Source: Pyramidobacter piscolens W5455
GTDB lineage: Bacteria; Synergistota; Synergistia; Synergistales; Dethiosulfovibrionaceae
NCBI RefSeq assembly: GCF_000177335.1
Contig: NZ_ADFP01000009.1
Coordinates: 1-39,826 of the forward strand
Length of the DNA stretch: 39,826 nucleotides
Direction: 5' to 3'
The notes beneath the pieces were generated by a model that saw only the letters and a program-made list of their open reading frames with translations, was not told the origin of the DNA and did not search any database. A program made the translations under genes and the position numbers. This document shows positions 6,411 to 19,167 of this stretch, in pieces. The number at the start of each line of letters is the position of its first letter. The stretch's first letter is position 1.

Positions 6411-7453
6411 CAGGATCTCACCTTCGTCACACGAGTCAGAGCATACAGAATCATGCCATTCGACACAATAATACGAATGACTTCAGACATATCGGTCTGG
6501 ATCATGCTGTTGATGACCGACGGCGTCATCGTCAGGATCCCCTGGAACAGGATCGTTCCCACGATCACGTTGACGATATTGGCTTTTTTCACGGACGCGC
6601 CGCCGATCAGGATCGCGGCCACGGCCGGAAACGCCATGTAGAAAGGCCCCATGTAGAGCTGAACGAAACCGAAGCACTGTTCGTACATGATGATGCCGAT
6701 CGCGCCCAGCCACGTGGAAAGGATGACCGACAGCGTGCGCATCTTGTCGATATTCACGCCGCTGGCGCGGGCGTAATCGGGATTGGAACCGACGATGGTC
6801 ATGGCCGTTCCGGTGCGGGTCCGCATGAAAAGGGACATCAAGCAGCACAGCAGCAGGAAGAAAAGGAACATTCCCGTGGGGAACGCCAGGAACTCGTTGA
6901 TGCGAAACGCGCCGATGCTGCTGATGGCGTTCTGCCAGAAAGCTTCGATGGAAATGGTCGTGCGCAGCCCCTTGCCGGCGTAGCCCCAGACCATGTTCGG
7001 GCTCTTGTAAGGCAATACCAGCCACATGATGCACATCAAAGCGACGGACGAAAAACCGACGTAGGTGGCGATCATCATCTCGCTGCCTTTGACCTTGTTG
7101 AGCAGAAGTCCGTAGCACCATCCCAGCACGATGGCGATAGGCGTGGCGATCAGCATGGCGGTGAGGATGCCCGGCAGTCCGGTGACTTCGAGTTCGACGC
7201 TCGTCACGGCGCCAAGCAGCCCGGCGATGATGCCGAGAGGCAGACCGAAATTGAGGCCGCAGCCCGACTGGACCATCGGCACCATGGCCAGCACCATGAC
7301 GCCGTTCATGCCGAAACGCACCAGCGTGTCGTTGATCGACGCGTCAAGACGGACGCCGACGAATGGAGCGAGCACAAATAACGAGATCAGGAACAAAGCG
7401 ATGAGGATTCGCGGCCAGCCAACGTCCTCAATAAAATTCTTGATGTCTTTCAT
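6410..7453 (-). CDS. ABC importer permease, simple-sugar/nucleoside (BPD_transp_2) type, subunit 1
   Basis: Inner-membrane protein of 347 residues related to its neighbour. It has VPMVQSGCGLNFGLPLGIIAGLLGAV near the start, SNPDYARASGVNIDKMRTLSVILSTWLGAIG (the cytoplasmic EAA-like loop that contacts the ATPase), then GGASVKKANIVNVIVGTILFQGIL. The ATG at 7453 overlaps the ATPase stop as ATGA. The two permeases share layout but are clearly diverged, as expected of a heterodimeric transporter core. Confidence 0.88.
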   Translation of the reverse strand: MKDIKNFIEDVGWPRILIALFLISLFVLAPFVGVRLDASINDTLVRFGMNGVMVLAMVPMVQSGCGLNFGLPLGIIAGLLGAVTSVELEVTGLPGILTAMLIATPIAIVLGWCYGLLLNKVKGSEMMIATYVGFSSVALMCIMWLVLPYKSPNMVWGYAGKGLRTTISIEAFWQNAISSIGAFRINEFLAFPTGMFLFFLLLCCLMSLFMRTRTGTAMTIVGSNPDYARASGVNIDKMRTLSVILSTWLGAIGIIMYEQCFGFVQLYMGPFYMAFPAVAAILIGGASVKKANIVNVIVGTILFQGILTMTPSVINSMIQTDMSEVIRIIVSNGMILYALTRVTKVRS

Positions 7454-9048
7454 TGATTCGCAGCCTCCTCGCTGGTACCGAGCATCAGATAGCCAAACTC
7501 CTCCGAAGAAGCGGAAGCGGGCTTGATGCCGACGACCGTTCCCTTGTCGATAATCGCGATGCGGTCACAGATCGAACGCAGCTCTTCCAGTTCGGAAGAG
7601 ATCATCACGATGGTCATGCCGAGTTCGCGGTTGTACTTCTTCAACGTATCGAGCACGACTTTTTTCGCGCCGACGTCGATGCCGCGCGTCGGTTCCGAAA
7701 CGAAAAGCAGTCGGGGATGCGTCTCGAAAGCTTTGGCCAGGCAGATCTTCTGCTGATTTCCGCCGGAGAGCTCGCGCACACGCTGTTTCGGGCTGACGCA
7801 CTTGATCTCCAGCTCCTGAATGTACTTTCTGGCGCATTCCAAAATGGCGTTGTCGTCGCGGACCTTGACCAAACCGCCGCACGACGGTTTGAGAAAACGT
7901 TTCTGATTCTGCAATGACGTAAAGATGATATTCCAAGCGATCGATTCGTCGAGCAGCAACCCGACGCCGCGGCGATCCTCGGAAACCGAGGAAATTCCCA
8001 TCGACAAGGGCGAGGTCGGGTCGTTCAACTGTACGGCCTTGCTGTCGAATTCCACCGCCCCTCCGGACGCATAAAGCCCCATAATGCCGTTCGAGATGCC
8101 AAGCTTGCCCTGTCCGGCCAGACCGCCGATGCCGAAGATCTCGCCTTCCTTGATGTCGAGATTGACGTCGCGCACCGTTTCGCCGGGCATATCGACCCAC
8201 AGATTGCGAACCTTCAGGATCTCCCGCCCAAACTTGCGCTCTTCCGCGTCGCCCTGGGCCGCCTTTTCGATGTTGCGTCCCACCATGCTGCTGGCGATCT
8301 CGCGCACGGTCGTTTTCGACGGCTCCGTCGTCAGCACCACTTCTCCGTCGCGCAGAACGACGATGTCGTCGCAGACTTCCATGACCTCGCGCAGGCGGTG
8401 CGAGATGAAGATGATGGCGATGCCGTTTTTGGCCAGCCGACGCATCGAATCGAGCAGAATCTCCGCTTCGCTCTCGGTGAGAACGGCCGTCGGCTCGTCG
8501 AGAACCAGAAGCTGCGTTTTGCTCTTGTCGATCTCGCGGGCAATTTCCGTGAACTCTTTATGCCCGACGGGAAGCTCGGAAATAAGCGTCTCGCCGTCGA
8601 GCGAGAAATTCAGCTTTTTGATCGCCTCTTCGGCGCGAAGCTTCATGTCGGCGCGATCCAGCGTCTTCAGACGTTCGCCGAAAGCTTCGACCAGAGGGTT
8701 GTAAACGAGCGACTCGCGATTGAGAACGATATTCTCCGTGACCGAAAAGCCGGGAATCAGCGAAAATTCCTGATGGACCATGCCGATGCCGGCTTCCAGC
8801 GCATCGTTCGGGCTGTGGAAATCGGCTTCCTTGCCGCTGATGTAGAATTTGCCCTCGTAGCCTCCCGTCTCGGCGATCACATTCATGCCGAACAGAATGT
8901 TCATCAGCGTCGACTTCCCCGCGCCGTTCTCCCCCACCAGACCAAGGATCCGTCCCTTGCCCAGGCTGAATGAAATATTCTTAAGAACTCGATTCCCGAA
9001 ATAGGCTTTGCCTATTTGTTCCACACGAAGCAAAGGTTCTCCTCCCAT
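7450..9048 (-). CDS. ABC importer ATPase with two fused nucleotide-binding domains
   Basis: Protein of 532 residues with two NBDs, as in RbsA/MglA/YufO ATPases. NBD1: Walker A GENGAGKST at 39-47, Q-loop Q93, Walker B LVLDEP with D184/E185, H217, but a changed signature ELPVGHKEF (158-166) instead of LSxGxxQ. NBD2: degenerate Walker A region GLAGQGKLG (309-317), a good signature LSGGNQQK (427-434), and FVSEPTRG with Ser451 where Walker B normally has Asp. So only one composite ATP site (NBD1 Walker motifs with the NBD2 signature) looks intact. ATG at 9048 with AAAGGAGG 9 bases upstream. First gene of a four-gene overlapping set. Confidence 0.9.
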   Translation of the reverse strand: MGGEPLLRVEQIGKAYFGNRVLKNISFSLGKGRILGLVGENGAGKSTLMNILFGMNVIAETGGYEGKFYISGKEADFHSPNDALEAGIGMVHQEFSLIPGFSVTENIVLNRESLVYNPLVEAFGERLKTLDRADMKLRAEEAIKKLNFSLDGETLISELPVGHKEFTEIAREIDKSKTQLLVLDEPTAVLTESEAEILLDSMRRLAKNGIAIIFISHRLREVMEVCDDIVVLRDGEVVLTTEPSKTTVREIASSMVGRNIEKAAQGDAEERKFGREILKVRNLWVDMPGETVRDVNLDIKEGEIFGIGGLAGQGKLGISNGIMGLYASGGAVEFDSKAVQLNDPTSPLSMGISSVSEDRRGVGLLLDESIAWNIIFTSLQNQKRFLKPSCGGLVKVRDDNAILECARKYIQELEIKCVSPKQRVRELSGGNQQKICLAKAFETHPRLLFVSEPTRGIDVGAKKVVLDTLKKYNRELGMTIVMISSELEELRSICDRIAIIDKGTVVGIKPASASSEEFGYLMLGTSEEAANQ

Positions 9049-9285: not shown

Positions 9286-10497
9286 CTATTTCAGCTGCAG
9301 ATATTTTTCAGGAACGACTTCGTCGGTCATGTTGAGGTAGCCCTTGCCAAAGATGTAGGTATCCTGATAGACGAGGATGTTGTTCTTCAGCTCGAGGCCC
9401 GTGTTGGCGTCCATGTAAACGGTGCCGTTCCACTTTGCGCCCGGCGTAGCGCCGTTATAAGCGGCGAGAAGGTCCTCGCGCTTGAAATGACGACGGAAAT
9501 TCTTCGGGGAAACGTCCTTCTCGATGCAGCTCTTGGCGTACTCGCCCAGCGCGAAAGTGGTCGTGAAGCCGTAGGAATACGCCCACGTGCCCATGCGTCC
9601 GGCGCCACCCTTGGCGACAACGGCGTCTTCCACTCTCTTCAAGATCGCGGGGAAATCGCCCGCCACGTCGGAAAGCTCGACGCCCAGAGCGCCGGGATAG
9701 CCCATCAGCGGCGAAGGAAGATCGGCTTCGATGAAGAAGCCCTTGCTCTCGGCGATCCTCTTCAGCAGAGGCTCGGTTTCGGCGTCGTTGGTGCAGAAGA
9801 AAGCGGTGTTGGGGCCATACTTGTCAAGCCACTGCGGAACGTGCTCGAGGATGAACTGCTGCGCGCCGGCCACGCCGACGTCGCTGGTGGGATCGGGAGC
9901 GCTCTCGAAGTGATACTTCATCCCCAGATCGTTGCAGGTGGCTTCCATGATCTTGGCGCGACGAGACATAAGCTCATAGCTCATGTGACGGGGGAAGGAG
10001 ATATGGACGAAGTCGGTGCAGCCCAGCTTGTGGGCGGCGAGGATGATCAGATAGCCGCGGGCGATGCTGTCGGAGTGAATGATAAGATCCCCGGAAGGGG
10101 CGATGACGCCGGGATCCTCGTGGTTCTCGCCGGCAAACAGCAGGATGTCGGGCCGGGCTTCGCGAATACGGCGGAACGCCTCGGTCGTGCCGGGGATAGC
10201 CTGGTTGACGATGACGGCCTTCATCAGCGGATCGTCGGCGAACGAAGCGATCTGGGAGATCGTCGTTTCCTGCTCGGTCATGAAGTTGTCGGGGTAGGTG
10301 ATGTGCTTGATCATGCCGCCGTTGGCGACGTCGCCGTAACGTTTGATCAGCTCTTCCGCGCCGCGAAGATCGTCCTCGGACTGAGAAACCGTGCCCGTGC
10401 AGACGCCGATGTGAAACTTCGCCGGCTCCGCCGCCATGGCGGACACGGCCCCCGCAAACAACGCCGCGGTCAGCAGACCAACAACAAACTTTTTCAT
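9286..10497 (-). CDS. DUF3798 periplasmic binding protein, copy A
   Basis: Protein of 403 residues with a Sec signal peptide (about 1-23, ending AMAA; no lipobox Cys, so soluble). The mature part starts with FHIGVCTGTVSQ, the opening beta strand of a type I periplasmic-binding fold. I assign it to the DUF3798 family from memory of family members in Synergistota and related anaerobes. It would bind a small ligand for the ABC transporter encoded just downstream. Copy B (10932-12146) is about 84% identical; differences cluster at residues about 133-147 and 340-360. ATG at 10497 with GGAGGGG. The ligand is unknown; the permease type hints at a nucleoside, sugar or similar polar compound. Confidence 0.82.
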   Translation of the reverse strand: MKKFVVGLLTAALFAGAVSAMAAEPAKFHIGVCTGTVSQSEDDLRGAEELIKRYGDVANGGMIKHITYPDNFMTEQETTISQIASFADDPLMKAVIVNQAIPGTTEAFRRIREARPDILLFAGENHEDPGVIAPSGDLIIHSDSIARGYLIILAAHKLGCTDFVHISFPRHMSYELMSRRAKIMEATCNDLGMKYHFESAPDPTSDVGVAGAQQFILEHVPQWLDKYGPNTAFFCTNDAETEPLLKRIAESKGFFIEADLPSPLMGYPGALGVELSDVAGDFPAILKRVEDAVVAKGGAGRMGTWAYSYGFTTTFALGEYAKSCIEKDVSPKNFRRHFKREDLLAAYNGATPGAKWNGTVYMDANTGLELKNNILVYQDTYIFGKGYLNMTDEVVPEKYLQLK

Positions 10498-10931: not shown

Positions 10932-12146
10932 TTATTTCATGTCGAGATATTTTTCGGGAATGACCTCGCCGGTCATGTTGAGGTAGCCCTTGCCAAAGAT
11001 GTAGGTATCCTGATAGACGAGGATGTTGTTCTTCAGCTCGAGGCCCGTGCTCGCGTCCTTGTAGATCGTCCCGTTCCAGCTTGCGCCGGGAGTTTCCGCG
11101 TCGAAAGTTTTCAGAAGAGCGTCCATCTTGAAGTTGCGGCGGAAGTTTTTCGGCGTGACGTCCTTTTCGATGCAACTCTTGGCGTACTCGCCCAGCGCCA
11201 AGGTGTTGGTGAATCCGTAAGAGTAAGCCCAGGTGCCCATGCGTCCGGAACCGCCCGCCTTGATCACGGCGTCCTCGACTCGCTTGAGGATCGCGGGGAA
11301 ATCGCCCGCCACGTCGGAAAGTTCGACGCCCAGCGCGCCGGGGTAGCCCATCAGCGGCGAAGGCATGTCCGCTTCGATGAAATAGCCGCCTTTCCCCTCG
11401 GCGATTCTCTTCAGCAGGGGTTCGGTGTGCGCGTCGTTGGTGCAGAAAAAAGCCGCCATCGGGCCGTACTTCTCGATCCAATGCGGAACTTTCTCGAGGA
11501 TGAACTGCTGCGCGCCGGCCACGCCGACGTCGCTGGTGGGATCGGGAGCCGTTTCGAAATGGTATTTCATGCCCAGATCGTTGCAGGCGGCCTCCATGAT
11601 CTTGGCGCGACGGGAGAGAAGCTCATAGCTCATGTGGCGCGGGAAGGAGATATGGACGAAATCGGTGCAGCCCAGCTTGTGGGCGGCGAGGATGATCAGA
11701 TAGCCGCGGGCGAGATCTCCGGCGTGAGTGACAAGGTCGGACGTGGGAGAGATGACGCCGGGATCCTCGTGGTTCTGCCCGGCAAACAGCAGGATGTCGG
11801 GGCGCGTCTCGCGAATACGGCGAAACGCCTCGGTCGTGCCGGGGATAGCCTGGTTGACGATGACGGCCTTCATCAGCGGATCGTCGGCGAACGAAGCGAT
11901 CTGGGAAATCGTCGTTTCCTGCTCGGTCATGAAGTTGTCGGGGTAGGTGATGTGCTTGATCATGCCGCCGTCGGCGACGTCGCCGTAACGTTTGATCAGC
12001 TCTTCCGCGCCGCGAAGATCGTCCTCGGTCTGAGAAACCGTGCCCGTGCAGACGCCGATGTGAAACTTCGCCGGCTCCGCCGCCATGGCGGACACGGCCC
12101 CCGCAAACAACGCCGCAGCCAGCAGAGACGTAACGAACTTTTTCAT
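10932..12146 (-). CDS. DUF3798 periplasmic binding protein, copy B
   Basis: Protein of 404 residues, paralogue of copy A in direct tandem. Signal peptide about 1-23 (AMAA), no lipobox. The DNA of the first 115 or so codons after the signal is almost identical to copy A including silent sites, while residues about 130-147 and the segment near 345-360 differ much more. That mosaic suggests recent gene conversion. Copy B has its own promoter and terminator, so the two copies can be expressed separately. ATG at 12146 with GGAGGAG. By analogy both feed the same ABC transporter, perhaps with different ligand preference (inference). Confidence 0.82.
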   Translation of the reverse strand: MKKFVTSLLAAALFAGAVSAMAAEPAKFHIGVCTGTVSQTEDDLRGAEELIKRYGDVADGGMIKHITYPDNFMTEQETTISQIASFADDPLMKAVIVNQAIPGTTEAFRRIRETRPDILLFAGQNHEDPGVISPTSDLVTHAGDLARGYLIILAAHKLGCTDFVHISFPRHMSYELLSRRAKIMEAACNDLGMKYHFETAPDPTSDVGVAGAQQFILEKVPHWIEKYGPMAAFFCTNDAHTEPLLKRIAEGKGGYFIEADMPSPLMGYPGALGVELSDVAGDFPAILKRVEDAVIKAGGSGRMGTWAYSYGFTNTLALGEYAKSCIEKDVTPKNFRRNFKMDALLKTFDAETPGASWNGTIYKDASTGLELKNNILVYQDTYIFGKGYLNMTGEVIPEKYLDMK

Positions 12147-12792: not shown

Positions 12793-14124
12793 TCAAGCCT
12801 TTTCGTTATTTCCATGGCTGGAACGCCAAAAAAGACGCAGCGGAACGCCGTCAAAATCTCCCGCTTCGCGAATTTTCCGCGACAGGTGGTTTTCAAAGCT
12901 CTTCGTCACGATCGCAGGGTCGTTGACGAAGAAGATAAACGTCGGCGGCACCGCGGCGCTCTGCGTGCAGTAATAGATCCGCAGCCGGCGTCCCGTGCCG
13001 TCCGTCGGCAGACGGTCGAAAGCCAGCATGTCGCGGATAATACGGTTCAATACCGTCGTGCTGAATCTGGATTGGCGGCGCCGGTGCACCTGGCTGACCA
13101 GATCGAGCAGCCGATGCAGACGGCGGCCGGAAACGGCCGAAGTGAAAAGCACCGGCGCGTGGCTCGCGAAGCGGAACTCCTCGCGGAGTTTCCCGTTCAC
13201 CTCGTCGCCGGTCTCCGGCGTGTTGGGCAGCAAGTCCCATTTGTTGACCACGAGGACGACGCCCTTGCCGCGGGCGAGGATCTCCCCCACCAGACGCTGG
13301 TCCTGCTCCGTCGCCAGTTCCCGCACGTCCATTACGAATATGGCCACGTCGCACTGATCGACTGCGTCCATGGTCCGCACCGTCGAATAAAATTCGATGT
13401 CGTCTTTGACCCGGCTTTTGCGGCGCAGACCGGCCGTATCGACAATGCGGAAGCGTTCGCCCTTATACTCGAGCACGGCGTCGATCGAATCGCGGGTCGT
13501 TCCCGGGATGTCGCTGACCAGCGACCGCTGGCTGCCCGTCAGCGCGTTGAGGATGCTCGACTTCCCCACGTTGGGGCGGCCGACGAGCGCCACGCTGATC
13601 ACGCCTTCCTCCGGGCCCTGCTCGTCTTCTTTATCGCCCAACATCTGCACTACCTGGTCCAGAAGCTCGTCAATCCCGCGATCATGAAGCGCGCTGACAC
13701 CGACGACTTTCTCGAAACCGAGCGAGTAGGCTTCGGCGACGTCGTCCTCATGACTGAAGTCGTCTATTTTATTGACCGCGAGGATGACCATCGAAGAATG
13801 AGAACGGAGCACCTGCGCCACATCCTCGTCCATCCAGGTGACTCCCCGGCTGCCGTCGACCATGAAAATCACGACGTCGCTCTCTTCGATGGCCTGGAAT
13901 ATCTGATCCTTCATGCCCTCCATGATCGGGTCTTTGTCTTTCAGCAGCAGACCGCCGGTATCGACCACGTAAAAACTTTTATCCTTCCATTGCACGCAGC
14001 CGTACAAACGGTCGCGCGTAACGCCCGGCATATCGTCGACGATAGCCCGGCGTTCGCCGATGATTCTGTTGAACAGCGACGACTTCCCTACGTTGGGACG
14101 TCCGACGATCGATACTATTGCCAT
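12793..14124 (-). CDS. der: Ribosome biogenesis GTPase Der (EngA)
   Basis: Protein of 443 residues with two tandem GTPase domains, the mark of Der. [10 protein letters not shown]-loops occur near residues 8 and 180, each followed by PGVTRD / PGTTRD switch regions, DTGG / DTAG G3 motifs and NKID / NKWD G4 motifs. A C-terminal KH-like domain ends the protein. It acts in late 50S assembly. ATG at 14124 with AAGGAG. Last gene of the nif3-der run, 32 bases after priA. Confidence 0.97.
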
Positions 14125-14156: not shown

Positions 14157-15944
14157 TCAGTCCGAGCAAACTTCGACGCTGGGAAAACCCCGGCGGGAAC
14201 TCCGGATGGTGAAATATTTTTCAAGACAGCGCCGCAACGGCGCCATGCGCGCGGTAAAAACGGTCAGCGCCGCGCCGGCCGCATCGGACTGCATGGTCGT
14301 AAAACCGGCTTCGTCGAGTCCGAAGACAAAATCGTCCTTCTCCTTCCAATCTTTCGGCAGCTCAATTTTGGCCATGTGCGAATAGGGGGGAAAAGAGAAA
14401 GCGCTTCTTTCCGCCAATTCCTCCCGCCAGAAATAGCTCCAGCCGGCCTGAAGAGATTTGAGAACCAACTGCCCGGGGCGGCGCGTTTGAAACAGGACCG
14501 TGCGCGCCCCCTGCCCCCGCCAGAGGGATTCCTCGAACATGGAAAACGCGGAAAAACGCGACGCGTAATCGGGCTGGCGAGCCTCGGCGTCCGCGTCCAG
14601 CCAGCCGATCAAAGCGGGATGTAGCCCGTCAAGCAGGCTCAAGGCCCGCCGCGAGCCGAGCAGGAGCCCGCCTTCTTGCTTCAGTTCGGCAAGCCGGCGA
14701 CGCCCGTCGGTCAGGTTCGCAGGATTCCCTGCGTGCCAGAGGCGCACGGGGCTGGCGCCCAAAAGATTCTGCGCCAGCGGCTGAAGCGCTTCCAGACCGG
14801 GCGCGGTCCCCTGAAACATCCGCCCGCCGCACTGCGGGCAGACTTCGGGCACGCTCGCTCTGGCGCCGCAAAGAGGGCAGCGCATCTCGTTCCGTTCAAA
14901 AGCCATGGCGGCGCCGCAGCGCGGGCACCGCACCGCCTGGCCGCAATCGGCGCACTGCAGTTCGCCGCTCACGCCGCGCCGGTCCAAAAGCCAAAAAACG
15001 ATGCGCTTGTCAGCCGCATGCCGCAGCGTTTCCGTCACAAGCACATCGGAAAGGGGCAGCGGGAACTGCATGCCCCTGAACGGAAGAAGCGAAGCGCCGT
15101 GAAGGTCAAGAATGCGCACGACAGACCGCGCCGCCGTTTTCCGCTCGGCCGGGTGAAAGTTTTTGAACACCCGCGACGACGGGATCCGCCCTCCCACGAC
15201 AAGACAACCGCCGGAAACGCGAGCGCGGGCCGCGGCAAAACTCCTCAGCGAGAACGGCGGATGTTTTTGACTGCGCCAGGATGGGTTCGCCTCTTCGTCG
15301 ATGATGAACAGTCCCGGCGCGGCAAACGGCGCAGCCGCCGCCCCCGGGCCGCCGACGATCACAGCGTCGTCGCGGGACAGGGCCAGGCGCCAGTTCTTCG
15401 TCGCCGCCTGAGCGCCCGACGCCGGCCACAGGATCAGGCGCTCCTTTGGGATCGCGCCGACCAAACTTTTGTAAAATCTTTGCGCCTGCTCTCGTTCCGG
15501 AAAGAGCGCCAGCGCGCCGCGACGACAGACGTAGATCTTTTCGCGATAGAGCCGCCAGCGTTCTTCATCGTCGTAGCGATAACAAAATTCGGACGAAAAC
15601 GGGATTTTTTCGCTTTCTCCGTACGGCGCGAAAGGGTCGCCCCGCCAGAAAGATGCCGGTAGCAGCAGCCTTAAGATTTCCGCCTGAGAACACAGAAAGG
15701 CCCGGGCAATTTCGTTTACGGCCTGCAGATACGGACGGTTCAGCACAGGCTGCGCGTCGAGAACCCGCAGAACGGTTTTCAGCCGGAGCGCCGCCGCGTT
15801 GTCCGCCCTTCCCGCCGCGAGCCCGACGCGGACGCCCCGCCCCATCGGAACAAGCACGCGCGCGCCGGCAGGCACGTCCCCCTCCGTCTGATACGTCAGC
15901 TCATGCCACCACGGCCCGGGAATCAGAACCTGCAGTTGAAACAT
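14157..15944 (-). CDS. priA: PriA-like primosomal protein lacking helicase motifs
   Basis: Protein of 595 residues, shorter than typical PriA (about 730). The N terminus (1-60, VLIPGPWW..YQTEG..AGARVLVPMG) matches the 3'-end-binding domain. All eight zinc cysteines are present (C331, 334, 340, 343, 356, 359, 369, 372), as are the WLDADAEARQPDY region, SFPPYSHMA and the C-terminal domain. But the segment with Walker A (GxTGSGKT) is missing: residues about 100-150 run straight past it. The DEEH box reads DEEA (216-219), the SAT motif reads GGRIPSS, and the MIAKGHDF and AGRAGR motifs are gone. So it probably cannot hydrolyse ATP, although it could still recognise forks and load other proteins (inference). 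ATG at 15944; SD weak. Confidence 0.85.
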   Translation of the reverse strand: MFQLQVLIPGPWWHELTYQTEGDVPAGARVLVPMGRGVRVGLAAGRADNAAALRLKTVLRVLDAQPVLNRPYLQAVNEIARAFLCSQAEILRLLLPASFWRGDPFAPYGESEKIPFSSEFCYRYDDEERWRLYREKIYVCRRGALALFPEREQAQRFYKSLVGAIPKERLILWPASGAQAATKNWRLALSRDDAVIVGGPGAAAAPFAAPGLFIIDEEANPSWRSQKHPPFSLRSFAAARARVSGGCLVVGGRIPSSRVFKNFHPAERKTAARSVVRILDLHGASLLPFRGMQFPLPLSDVLVTETLRHAADKRIVFWLLDRRGVSGELQCADCGQAVRCPRCGAAMAFERNEMRCPLCGARASVPEVCPQCGGRMFQGTAPGLEALQPLAQNLLGASPVRLWHAGNPANLTDGRRRLAELKQEGGLLLGSRRALSLLDGLHPALIGWLDADAEARQPDYASRFSAFSMFEESLWRGQGARTVLFQTRRPGQLVLKSLQAGWSYFWREELAERSAFSFPPYSHMAKIELPKDWKEKDDFVFGLDEAGFTTMQSDAAGAALTVFTARMAPLRRCLEKYFTIRSSRRGFPSVEVCSD

Positions 15945-15965: not shown

Positions 15966-16298
15966 TTATTTCCGACGGCTGTCCGCAGATCCGGAACTTT
16001 TTTTCTCCGCGGCGCGTTCCAGCTTCTTCTGTTCCTCTTCGAACGCCGCTTCCGATTCCAGCTCGTTCTCGATGGCGTCGGGAATCGTTTCGGTCTGCAG
16101 CTGCACGCTGACGTTTCCATCTTCCATGTCGCACAACGCCAAAGAGATGGCTTTTTCGCCGGGGTGCTTCTCGAGTATCCCGTTGACTCCTTTCACTTCG
16201 CTGATCTGACGCGCCCTCTGCGCGATGATCGCCGTGAGAAGGTACTTGTTGTGCACGTTCACGTTGTCCATTATCTTATCCAGATTATGAAAATTCAT
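15966..16298 (-). CDS. rpoZ: RNA polymerase omega subunit
   Basis: Protein of 110 residues. NLDKIMDNVNVHNKYLLTAIIAQRARQI is the omega core with the conserved K-Y-L-L-x-x-x-x-A-x-R-A-R/Q segment. Omega assists folding of beta-prime. The rest, from about residue 45, is an acidic then basic tail longer than in many bacteria. The ATG at 16298 has an AGGAGAGG SD and is preferred to an in-frame ATG 16 codons earlier that would fall inside gmk. It follows gmk by 11 bases, the standard gmk-rpoZ pairing. Confidence 0.93.
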   Translation of the reverse strand: MNFHNLDKIMDNVNVHNKYLLTAIIAQRARQISEVKGVNGILEKHPGEKAISLALCDMEDGNVSVQLQTETIPDAIENELESEAAFEEEQKKLERAAEKKSSGSADSRRK

Positions 16299-16309
16299 TC
16301 TACCTCTCC

Positions 16310-16885
16310 TCAAAGAGCCTGACGGCGCTGCTCCACGAAACGGCACACGCGCTTCACCGCTTCGTCCAGGGAATCATTGACCACCACAAAATCATAGAGG
16401 TCCCGCTGTTTCATTTCTTCGACGGCGTTCCGAAGGCGAAGCCGCAGTTCGGCTTCGCCTTCGGAACGCCGACCTCTGAGACGCTCTTCAAGGACTTCGA
16501 TGGACGGCGGCACAACGAAAAGAGTCACGGCTTCGGGCATCTTTTTCTTGACTTGAAGCGCCCCCTGCACATCGATCTCCAGAAACATGTCCTTGCCTTC
16601 GTTCAAAACCTTTTCCACATCGCTTTTCAGAGTCCCGTAGCGGTGACGATGCACATCGGCCCATTCAAGGAAATCTCCCGCCGCGATACGCGCCGCAAAG
16701 TCCTCCGGCGTGATGAAACGATAATCTACGCCATCCCGTTCGCCCTCGCGCGGAGCGCGGGTGGTGCAGGAAACGGAATAGCTCAACCCGTCGAGCGCCT
16801 CGAAAACCCTGGCGCGGATCGTACCTTTCCCCGCGCCGCTGGGGCCGGAAAGGACAAACAGCGTTCCCTTTCTATTCTTCGTCAT
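16310..16885 (-). CDS. gmk: Guanylate kinase
   Basis: Protein of 191 residues converting GMP (or dGMP) to GDP. P-loop [11 protein letters not shown] at 12-22, [22 protein letters not shown] (GMP binding), [18 protein letters not shown] and [27 protein letters not shown] follow in the usual order. The start at 16885 lies 14 bases inside the end of remA, so they are translationally coupled. Confidence 0.97.
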
Positions 16886-17135
16886 CGGCGCTGTCCCCTT
16901 CCGAAATGCGGTTGACGATGGTTTCCGGCTGAATGGCCGAAAGCAGGACGTGATTGCTGTCCGTCACGATGATCGCCCGGGTCTTGCGTCCTTTCGTGGC
17001 GTCGATCAGGCGGCCGGCCGCGCGCGCCTCTTCCTTGAGCCTCTTGACGGGAGAAGACGCGGGCTGAATGATCGCCACGATCCGTTCGGCCACGATCATA
17101 TTGCCGAAGCCGACATGCACAAGCGTTCGCGCCAT
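16872..17135 (-). CDS. remA: RemA/DUF370 family regulator
   Basis: Protein of 87 residues: [63 protein letters not shown] is the DUF370 signature. In B. subtilis RemA is a DNA-binding activator of biofilm genes that forms ring-like oligomers. The N-terminal GFGN and the KGRKTRA segment are conserved. The yicC-remA-gmk-rpoZ order is shared widely outside Firmicutes, though the role in a diderm anaerobe is unknown. ATG at 17135 sits three bases after the yicC stop. Confidence 0.92.
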
Positions 17136-17138
17136 GGC

Positions 17139-18020
17139 CTACTCCACGTTCTGGATCTGCTCGCGGATACGTTCGAGCAGCGTTTTGCCGTCCACCACAA
17201 GCCAGCGAAGCTCGGTGCTGGCCGATTTAGAACCCATCGTATTGATTTCCCGGTTCATCTCCTGCACCAGAAAATCCAGCTTGCGCCCCACCGGACCGCC
17301 GGTTTTCAAAAGCGTGCGGAACTGGGACGTATGGCTGGACGAACGGGTCAGTTCCTCGGAGATGTCCCACTTATCCGACAGAATCACGAGTTCCTGGGCA
17401 AGGCGCGCGGGATCGGCCTCATAACCGAGCTGCGCGATCGTTTTCGTGATTTTGGCGCGATAGTCGTCGAAAAACTGCGGCGAGATGCTCTGCCATCGCG
17501 CGTCGATTTTCCCCAGAAGGCGGTCGTACTCTTCGAGATTCTGCATGATATCGCGCTCAAGCGCTTCGCCTTCGACCGCGCGCATTTTTATCAGGCCGTC
17601 CGCACACTGGTTCAACAGTTCGAACAACGCCGTCTGGACTTCGCCGGAAGTTCTGTCCATCAGGGAAGAGGTCTCGGTGACGCCGGGCAGACAGAGCAGA
17701 CTCGTCACCGCAGGCACCGGGCCGCCGAGTTCGCCCTGCAGTTCCTGAATCTCCCGATAATAGTCCCGCAGGACGTCGCCGTTCAGGCGTTCGCGCATCA
17801 GCGCCGACGCCCATCTCATCTCGGCGCGCGCCACGACTTTGCCACGCGCCAGACGGCCGCGCAGGTCGTTTTGGATCAGCGGCTCAAAACTCGAGAGTTC
17901 CCGGTCGGTGCGCACAGCGATCTCCAGATAGCGGGAATTGACGCTGGAAAGTTCCACGGTCAGGGTTCCCCATGGAGAGTCTTTCTTGGCGCGATGAAAA
18001 CCTGTCATGCTGTAAAGCAT
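17139..18020 (-). CDS. yicC: YicC family endoribonuclease
   Basis: Protein of 293 residues: begins MLYSMTGFHRAKKD, the YicC hallmark, followed by SSVNSRYLEI and the C-terminal DUF1732 part with ELVILSDKWDISEELTR and GRKLDFLVQEMNREINTMGSKS. YicC proteins are Mn2+-dependent endoribonucleases implicated in sRNA turnover. ATG at 18020 chosen for the AAAGGAG upstream and family start; an upstream in-frame start would overlap hflX. Second of four genes (hflX-yicC-remA-gmk) with tight spacing. Confidence 0.95.
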   Translation of the reverse strand: MLYSMTGFHRAKKDSPWGTLTVELSSVNSRYLEIAVRTDRELSSFEPLIQNDLRGRLARGKVVARAEMRWASALMRERLNGDVLRDYYREIQELQGELGGPVPAVTSLLCLPGVTETSSLMDRTSGEVQTALFELLNQCADGLIKMRAVEGEALERDIMQNLEEYDRLLGKIDARWQSISPQFFDDYRAKITKTIAQLGYEADPARLAQELVILSDKWDISEELTRSSSHTSQFRTLLKTGGPVGRKLDFLVQEMNREINTMGSKSASTELRWLVVDGKTLLERIREQIQNVE

Positions 18021-18036
18021 TGCTTTTCTCCTTTCC

Positions 18037-19167
18037 TCAGCTGCGGCGCACGGCAAGCCAGTCGAAGACTTCCCACAGACTTTCGACGCCTTCGCCTGTC
18101 AGCGCGCTCAAGGCGCATACCGGCAATCCGTCGCGCCTCAGCTGCGCCCTGATCCGTTCGACCCGGAAGAGCCCCGAACGATCGATCTTGTTCAGCACTA
18201 TGGCCCTTGGGAGCGTCGCCGCGCCGATCTCGTCAAGAGTCTGCTGGATCACGTCGTACGTCGCCGTCAGATCGGGATCGTTGGCGTCGAGCACCACGAG
18301 GAGCATATCCGCCTGACAGGCTTCTTCGAGGGTCGTCCGAAAGGCCGCGATCAGTTCCGGCGGAAGTTCGCGGATGAATCCCACGGTATCGGCCATGAGG
18401 ATGTTCCTCCCCGACGGCAGACGAACCGAACGGACCGTCGTGTCCAGCGTCGCGAAGAGCTGATCGGCGGCATAAAGTTTTTTGTCGCCGCTGAGACGCT
18501 TCAGCAGCGTGGTCTTGCCGCTGTTCGTGTAGCCTACCAGAGCCACCGTGGGGACGCCGCTGCGGCGGCGCTGCTTTCGCTGTCCCTGGCGGCGCTTTTT
18601 CATCTCTTCCAGTTTGCGGGAAGCTTCGACGATGCGGGCCTGCAGCTTGCGGCGATGCCGTTCGAATTCCGTTTCGCCGGGACCGCGCGTGCCGATTCCG
18701 GCTCCGGCGTTCGACATCTGCTTCCCCAATCCGCGAATGTGGGGCATCTCGTAACGGCACCGCGCCAGCTCAACCTGAAGTTTTGCCTCCGCCGTCGCGG
18801 CGCGCCGTTCGAAGATCTTCATGATCACAAGAGCCCGGTCCCAGACCTCGCAGTCGGTTTTCCGCCGCATGTTGCTCAATTGGATCGGCGTCAGCAGGTC
18901 GTTGCAGACGACCAGATCGGCTTCCGAAGCCTGCGCCAGGATTTTCAGCTCGTCCGCCTTGCCGGCGCCCAGCAGAAACGCGGGATCGGGGCGGTCTTTT
19001 TTCTGCGTCGCCACGGCAACGACCTCTACGTCGAGATTCGCCAGCAGCAGACGCAGTTCTTCCAGGAGCAGTTCCAGATCATCGCGCAGCGGCAGTTCCA
19101 GACCGGTAATCACCGCGCGGCGGTGCGCCGCCGCATGATTTTTGAAATCCGGAGGCAGCGACGTCAG
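18037..19167 (-). CDS. hflX: Ribosome-associated GTPase HflX
   Basis: GTPase that binds the 50S subunit and splits stalled ribosomes. The N-terminal HflX domain (LLGAGKADEL, QLSNMRRKTDCEVWDRALVIMKIFERRA, GIGTRGPGETEFERHRR) is followed by a G domain with P-loop GYTNSGKTTL, DTVGFIRELP, and G4 NKID. The start is uncertain. The first usual start codon is a GTG at 19113 (358 residues), which has no SD. A CTG at 19167 in the same frame has AAAGGAG eight bases upstream (19176-19182), overlaps the plsC stop, and would add 18 residues (376 in all). I give the longer form as more likely. Either is shorter at the C terminus than E. coli HflX. Confidence 0.93.
   Translation of the reverse strand: MTSLPPDFKNHAAAHRRAVITGLELPLRDDLELLLEELRLLLANLDVEVVAVATQKKDRPDPAFLLGAGKADELKILAQASEADLVVCNDLLTPIQLSNMRRKTDCEVWDRALVIMKIFERRAATAEAKLQVELARCRYEMPHIRGLGKQMSNAGAGIGTRGPGETEFERHRRKLQARIVEASRKLEEMKKRRQGQRKQRRRSGVPTVALVGYTNSGKTTLLKRLSGDKKLYAADQLFATLDTTVRSVRLPSGRNILMADTVGFIRELPPELIAAFRTTLEEACQADMLLVVLDANDPDLTATYDVIQQTLDEIGAATLPRAIVLNKIDRSGLFRVERIRAQLRRDGLPVCALSALTGEGVESLWEVFDWLAVRRS

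Follow-up and report, generated by a model that had tools for sequence, protein, structure and literature searches.

Synergistota PriA lacks the helicase motifs of a motor and is a probable ATP-independent pseudohelicase

Results

The window, a stretch of 39,826 nucleotides from the genome of Pyramidobacter piscolens W5455 (contig NZ_ADFP01000009.1), carries a priA-like gene at positions 14157..15944 of the minus strand. It is an uninterrupted open frame with an ATG start, encoding 595 amino acids, as read in the first-pass annotation, which had found no simple frameshift. Upstream lie rpoZ (15966..16346; PF01192), gmk (16310..16885; PF00625), a remA-like gene (16872..17135; PF04025), and yicC (17139..18056; PF03755 and PF08340), and der (EngA; 12793..14124) follows downstream, all on the minus strand and all conserved neighbors of priA. 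The order yicC-remA-gmk-rpoZ-priA-der is conserved and extends to the early-branching class with GBS-1; wherever the neighbors of priA were found in the stretches compared, they held order and strand. The rpoZ frame as listed begins with a GTG (16346) and shares 37 bases (16310-16346) with the end of gmk; its true start is probably located further downstream. Elsewhere in the window, two tandem DUF3798 (PF12683) genes at 9286-10497 and 10932-12146, both on the minus strand, adjoin an ABC transporter ATPase gene (7450-9048). They are identical at 349 of 404 aligned positions and have the look of a periplasmic-binding-protein-like gene that recently underwent tandem duplication or gene conversion.

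The product of the window gene is a true PriA orthologue devoid of the ATPase residues. It matched the NCBIfam PriA models NF004067 (E value 2e-43) and TIGR00595 (133.7 bits), and it retrieved PriA chains of known structure from the PDB with E values of 4e-32 to 3e-30. TIGR00595, the PriA helicase equivalog, has a curated cut-off of 230.35 bits, and thus the protein falls outside the helicase equivalog proper. A second PriA, which the first-pass annotation had proposed to look for, was not found in full-length or canonical form when the genome was searched with TIGR00595; the other matches were helicase-motif stretches inside other long frames, one of them RecG. The window gene is therefore the sole priA of this genome.

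The domain layout is that of a reduced PriA. The 3'-end-binding domain (3'BD; residues 1-96, 15657..15944) was recognized by PF17764 over residues 5-96 with 53.4 bits against a cut-off of 22.7. It is followed by a short, poorly conserved linker (residues 97-114, 15603..15656; mean identity, 0.31), standing where canonical PriA has its winged-helix domain. This domain (PF21213) was not found by Pfam in the window protein or in four relatives, with E. coli PriA as positive control (residues 114-176), and its absence accounts for most of the shorter length of the protein. Alignment and model fold delimit a degenerate helicase lobe 1 (residues 115-265, 15150..15602) and a degenerate lobe 2 including the zinc cassette (residues 266-490, 14475..15149). 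Neither DEAD nor Helicase_C was matched by Pfam in the window protein, whereas both were matched in E. coli PriA. The zinc cassette (residues 331-372, 14829..14954) contains cysteines at positions 331, 334, 340, 343, 356, 359, 369, and 372, and all eight line up in every one of 82 sequences, that of E. coli among them. PriA_C (PF18074) was not detected by Pfam in the window protein and was detected in an early-branching member (L091) and in E. coli. The first-pass annotation had recorded the retained 3'-end-binding N terminus and the eight zinc cysteines; the losses of the winged-helix domain and of a recognizable PriA_C come in addition to those it listed.

An AlphaFold2 model built with 62 Synergistota rows reached a pLDDT of 93.3 and a pTM of 0.91. 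Its best structural match was fork-bound E. coli PriA (8fak_H; TM score, 0.81), and E. coli PriA with the winged-helix domain deleted (6dcr_B) was matched with a Z score of 30.6 over 486 residues at 3.5 A. In both Foldseek and VIA-align, solved PriA structures ranked first by a wide margin, followed by SF2 helicases such as Mfd and UvrB with Z scores near 14-16. This ranking suggests that the predicted motor fold persists without the catalytic residues.

Alignment to E. coli PriA located the losses. GVTGSGKTE is replaced by YDDEERWR, DEEH by DEEA (residues 216-219, 15288..15299), GSATP by GGRIP, and KGHHF by SLLDG, and an SLWRG region takes the place of AGRAGR. A survey of 81 Synergistota proteins aligned with E. 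coli PriA revealed the same state throughout. Walker A was replaced in all 81, and the P-loop was found in 0 of 105 aligned Synergistota proteins. In place of DEEH stood DEE or DDE, with S, A, N, or G as the usual next residue. In most of the 81 proteins, GSATP was substituted by GGRxPSS, KGHHF by an SLC-type segment, and AGRAGR by ESxWRG. Former motif III, now the Synergistales signature LGGRxPSSR (residues 249-258, 15171..15200), has a mean column identity of 0.75, and former motif VI (QVAGRAGR), now ESxWRG, maps by alignment to residues 468-479 (14508..14543). Taken jointly, the former motif blocks I, II, III, V, and VI exceeded random lobe blocks in conservation (0.62 versus 0.51; p 0.02), block I on its own being below average (0.46). 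The 81-protein alignment thus bears out the motif account of the first-pass annotation, namely, the missing GxTGSGKT P-loop, DEEA for DEEH, and the replaced SAT, KGHDF, and AGRAGR motifs, with the exception that Walker A was not deleted: a segment of nearly equal length was substituted, and the lysine position is occupied by R129.

This lysine-to-arginine change, a detail absent from the first-pass annotation, is a constant trait of the Synergistota protein. The end of the former Walker A reads R129-x-x-x-Y133 (ERWRLY; residues 128-133, 15546..15563) for K230-T-E-V-Y234 of E. coli, the K230 column being anchored by the tyrosine four residues later; lysine and tyrosine were present in 56 of 56 intact PriA proteins. 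Arginine occupied this position in 103 of 105 Synergistota proteins, the exceptions being one protein truncated there and one with Gln. Since all six arginine codons are used (AGA, 20; CGC, 17; CGT, 16; AGG, 14; CGG, 7; CGA, 5) despite the lost glycines and the poor conservation of the surrounding block, selection appears to act on the amino acid itself. At the third acidic position of Walker B, 104 of 105 proteins had Glu. In SF2 folds, the positions of the Walker A lysine and the Walker B glutamate lie on opposite sides of the phosphate site, facing one another, and it is therefore a reasonable inference that a putative salt bridge between Arg129 and the Walker B glutamate replaces ATP.

Retention of this arginine and of most Walker B acidic residues (D/E and E) could also be taken as a sign that Synergistota PriA is still a motor, binding or hydrolyzing ATP via a noncanonical site. 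However, only scattered single residues of the Walker A Gly/Thr, motif III, motif V, and AGRAGR remain in the 81 aligned proteins, and the K230R substitution alone abolishes the ATPase activity of E. coli PriA (PMC4504706). We thus regard a persisting motor as very improbable.

The first-pass annotation had asked for relatives to be compared for fixation of the loss and for purifying selection, and both were observed. TIGR00595 matched in 188 of 188 Synergistota genomes searched, among them Acetomicrobium hydrogeniformans (L148), GBS-1 (L113), and the early-branching AUK227 genome (L093), and among the PriA matches listed, none covered profile positions 1-11, the P-loop part. In contrast, matches to intact PriA of other phyla begin at position 1. 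Together with the 105 aligned proteins, these profile matches support fixation of the P-loop loss across the phylum. In comparisons of the window gene with two close relatives, dN/dS (Nei-Gojobori, custom script) was 0.19 to 0.21 for the whole gene and 0.17 to 0.27 for lobe 1. Lost catalytic motifs would also be expected of a decaying pseudogene or of a sequencing or assembly artifact, yet open frames of normal length encode the aligned Synergistota proteins, which represent tens of genera, dN/dS is about 0.2, and the zinc ligands are invariant, leaving this explanation a negligible probability. A frameshift, a pseudogene, and a one-strain error are accordingly ruled out by open frames throughout the phylum and by dN/dS, and recurrence of the same state across the phylum speaks against the last of these in particular. 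The data strongly support the conclusion that the motor is gone and that the fork-gripping shell is kept by selection.

Among the loader types searched, DciA was the one found. It was present in 58 of 61 Synergistota genomes, one of them that of the window, and the DnaD/DnaB_2 loader was found in 0 of 41. By their position and length, the matches to PF01695, used to search for AAA+ loaders, look like DnaA, IS21-type ATPases, and further AAA proteins. RecG was likewise present in 58 of 61 genomes. DciA was also detected in the control genome of Thermotoga maritima, whose PriA is intact, and since DciA is widespread and occurs beside an intact PriA, its presence does not single out a partner. 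In mycobacteria, DciA is the essential DnaB-binding factor (PMC5720831), and the Synergistota resemble them in that DciA is the loader type present.

PriA proteins without a P-loop were also found outside the Synergistota. Among 119 Actinomycetota genomes, position 1 or 2 of TIGR00595 was covered in about 51 and not covered in about 63, and a second phylum outside the Synergistota (L094, L185-L196; CSMAG_2279) had intact PriA in about 31 of 60 genomes, both sets of counts being made by eye from match tables. Sequences read from the latter phylum confirm the losses and include intermediates such as YGLT-R for GVTGSGKT, in which the Walker A glycines are lost and the lysine position still holds arginine. 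PriA of the Patescibacteria member REEB69 (L107) likewise has no P-loop and displays the same RxxxY pattern. In Actinomycetota (L177-L184), a loop after motif II (e.g., SYKED-RSPRYDARR) was kept in 4 of 8 P-loop-less sequences read, a hint that a probably DNA-sensing loop may outlive the motor there. A tree built without the motif columns implied at least four changes of P-loop state, a number that is approximate because the tree search was short and branches are long.

Discussion

Canonical PriA performs two separable jobs: recognition of the fork with recruitment of the DnaB-loading machinery, and the use of ATP to open the lagging arm. We propose, with a probability of about 75%, that Synergistota PriA is an ATP-independent pseudohelicase that serves as a fork-recognition and DnaB-loading scaffold, probably together with DciA. 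We infer that it would have no ATPase activity, bind forks, load DnaB, and act in replication restart. An abandoned fork would be recognized via the 3'BD, the two-lobe core, and the zinc cassette, and the replicative helicase DnaB would be recruited without ATP hydrolysis, probably with the loader DciA. The old ATP site would have become a structural element, in which the putative salt bridge of the arginine with the Walker B glutamate probably fixes lobe 1 without nucleotide. The fork remodeling that canonical PriA carries out with ATP would be left to other helicases, e.g., RecG.

The same protein might instead have left restart and now act elsewhere as a DNA-binding or regulatory scaffold, its signatures GGRxPSSR, LDRKGYAG, DADAEAR, and ESxWRG forming a surface for a new partner rather than for DnaB loading. 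The above-average conservation of these lineage-specific signatures at former motif positions and the reduction of the winged-helix and C-terminal domains are in line with such a change of role. However, the 3'BD, all eight zinc cysteines, and the overall PriA fold are retained, the gene is a single orthologue whose neighborhood is conserved in order, and our searches detected no other restart initiator (DnaB_2, 0/41). Departure from restart is thus unlikely, and a restart scaffold is the reading we prefer.

Compared to canonical E. coli PriA, the Synergistota protein shares the 3'BD, the two-lobe core, the zinc cassette, and the fold; unlike it, it lacks Walker A, DEEH, SAT, KGHHF, AGRAGR, and the winged-helix domain and has a reduced C-terminal domain. 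In 2015, Lopper, Boone, and Morrow described Deinococcus radiodurans PriA as a pseudohelicase without ATPase and unwinding activity, with near-normal fork affinity and the ability to bind DnaB (PMC4504706). The helicase motifs were then viewed as well conserved in PriA, Deinococcus-Thermus being the notable exception (PMC4504706). The window protein shows the same sequence traits: it is an orthologue in which motifs I and II are lost and arginine has taken the place of the Walker A lysine. The D. radiodurans genome has no clear PriB or DnaT, and in Deinococcus-Thermus, too, the loss was reported at the level of the phylum (PMC4504706). Deinococcus-Thermus PriA, known to us from the description in that report rather than from sequence, keeps a recognizable GKT-like loop with K changed to R, whereas Synergistota PriA is also without the glycine loop, SAT, motif V, motif VI, and the winged-helix domain. 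The change of the catalytic lysine is that of E. coli K230R (priA300), which has neither ATPase nor helicase activity (PMC4504706) and is nevertheless competent for primosome assembly and stable DNA replication (PMC7326373; PMC4504706). Synergistota PriA is thus a natural parallel to this laboratory ATPase-dead allele, in which, unlike in K230R, the rest of the motor was lost too and the loss was fixed over a phylum.

Actinobacterial PriA was noted to be smaller and very divergent by Rocha et al. in 2005 (PMC1193525). In the sampled Actinomycetes, it resembles the Synergistota protein in being a shortened, P-loop-less single orthologue; in our tree it forms a separate branch, and in most of the sequences read, the lysine position is not Arg (H, R, G, W, and E were seen). 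We found no paper on the helicase motifs of Synergistota PriA. The first-pass annotation had judged that a lineage running replication restart on an ATP-less PriA would be unusual. Its reading of the gene as a PriA homologue without ATPase residues stands, with the loss fixed in the phylum and the gene under purifying selection; that such a PriA is so unusual as to be new is not supported, given the precedents in D. radiodurans (PMC4504706), the remark of 2005 (PMC1193525), and about half of the sampled Actinomycetota. Synergistota PriA is a more extreme form of PriA pseudohelicase, not its first example.

It is tempting to speculate that the ATP site has been turned into a structural lock, an Arg-Glu pair replacing ATP and holding a fork-bound, loading-competent state that was reached independently in several lineages; ATP-free restart would then be a recurrent, stable design and no oddity of Deinococcus. 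We put this forward tentatively, as a possible but less probable extension. Arginine at the lysine position is not general, since most actinomycete pseudohelicases have not kept it.

The presence of a motorless sole copy throughout a phylum suggests that broken replication forks can be restarted without PriA burning ATP. Judged from the 188 genomes of Synergistota, about half of the 119 sampled from Actinomycetota, and some of those from a third phylum, PriA ATPase appears to have been lost repeatedly and stably, with the fork-binding parts kept. The essential job of PriA, recognizing the fork and recruiting DnaB, would thereby be separated from the optional one, unwinding, and comparing lineages offers a way to test what the ATPase does. 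The designation "ATP-dependent helicase" is probably wrong for lineages with P-loop-less PriA, and the Synergistota proteins may offer natural motor-free material for structural work on DnaB loading.
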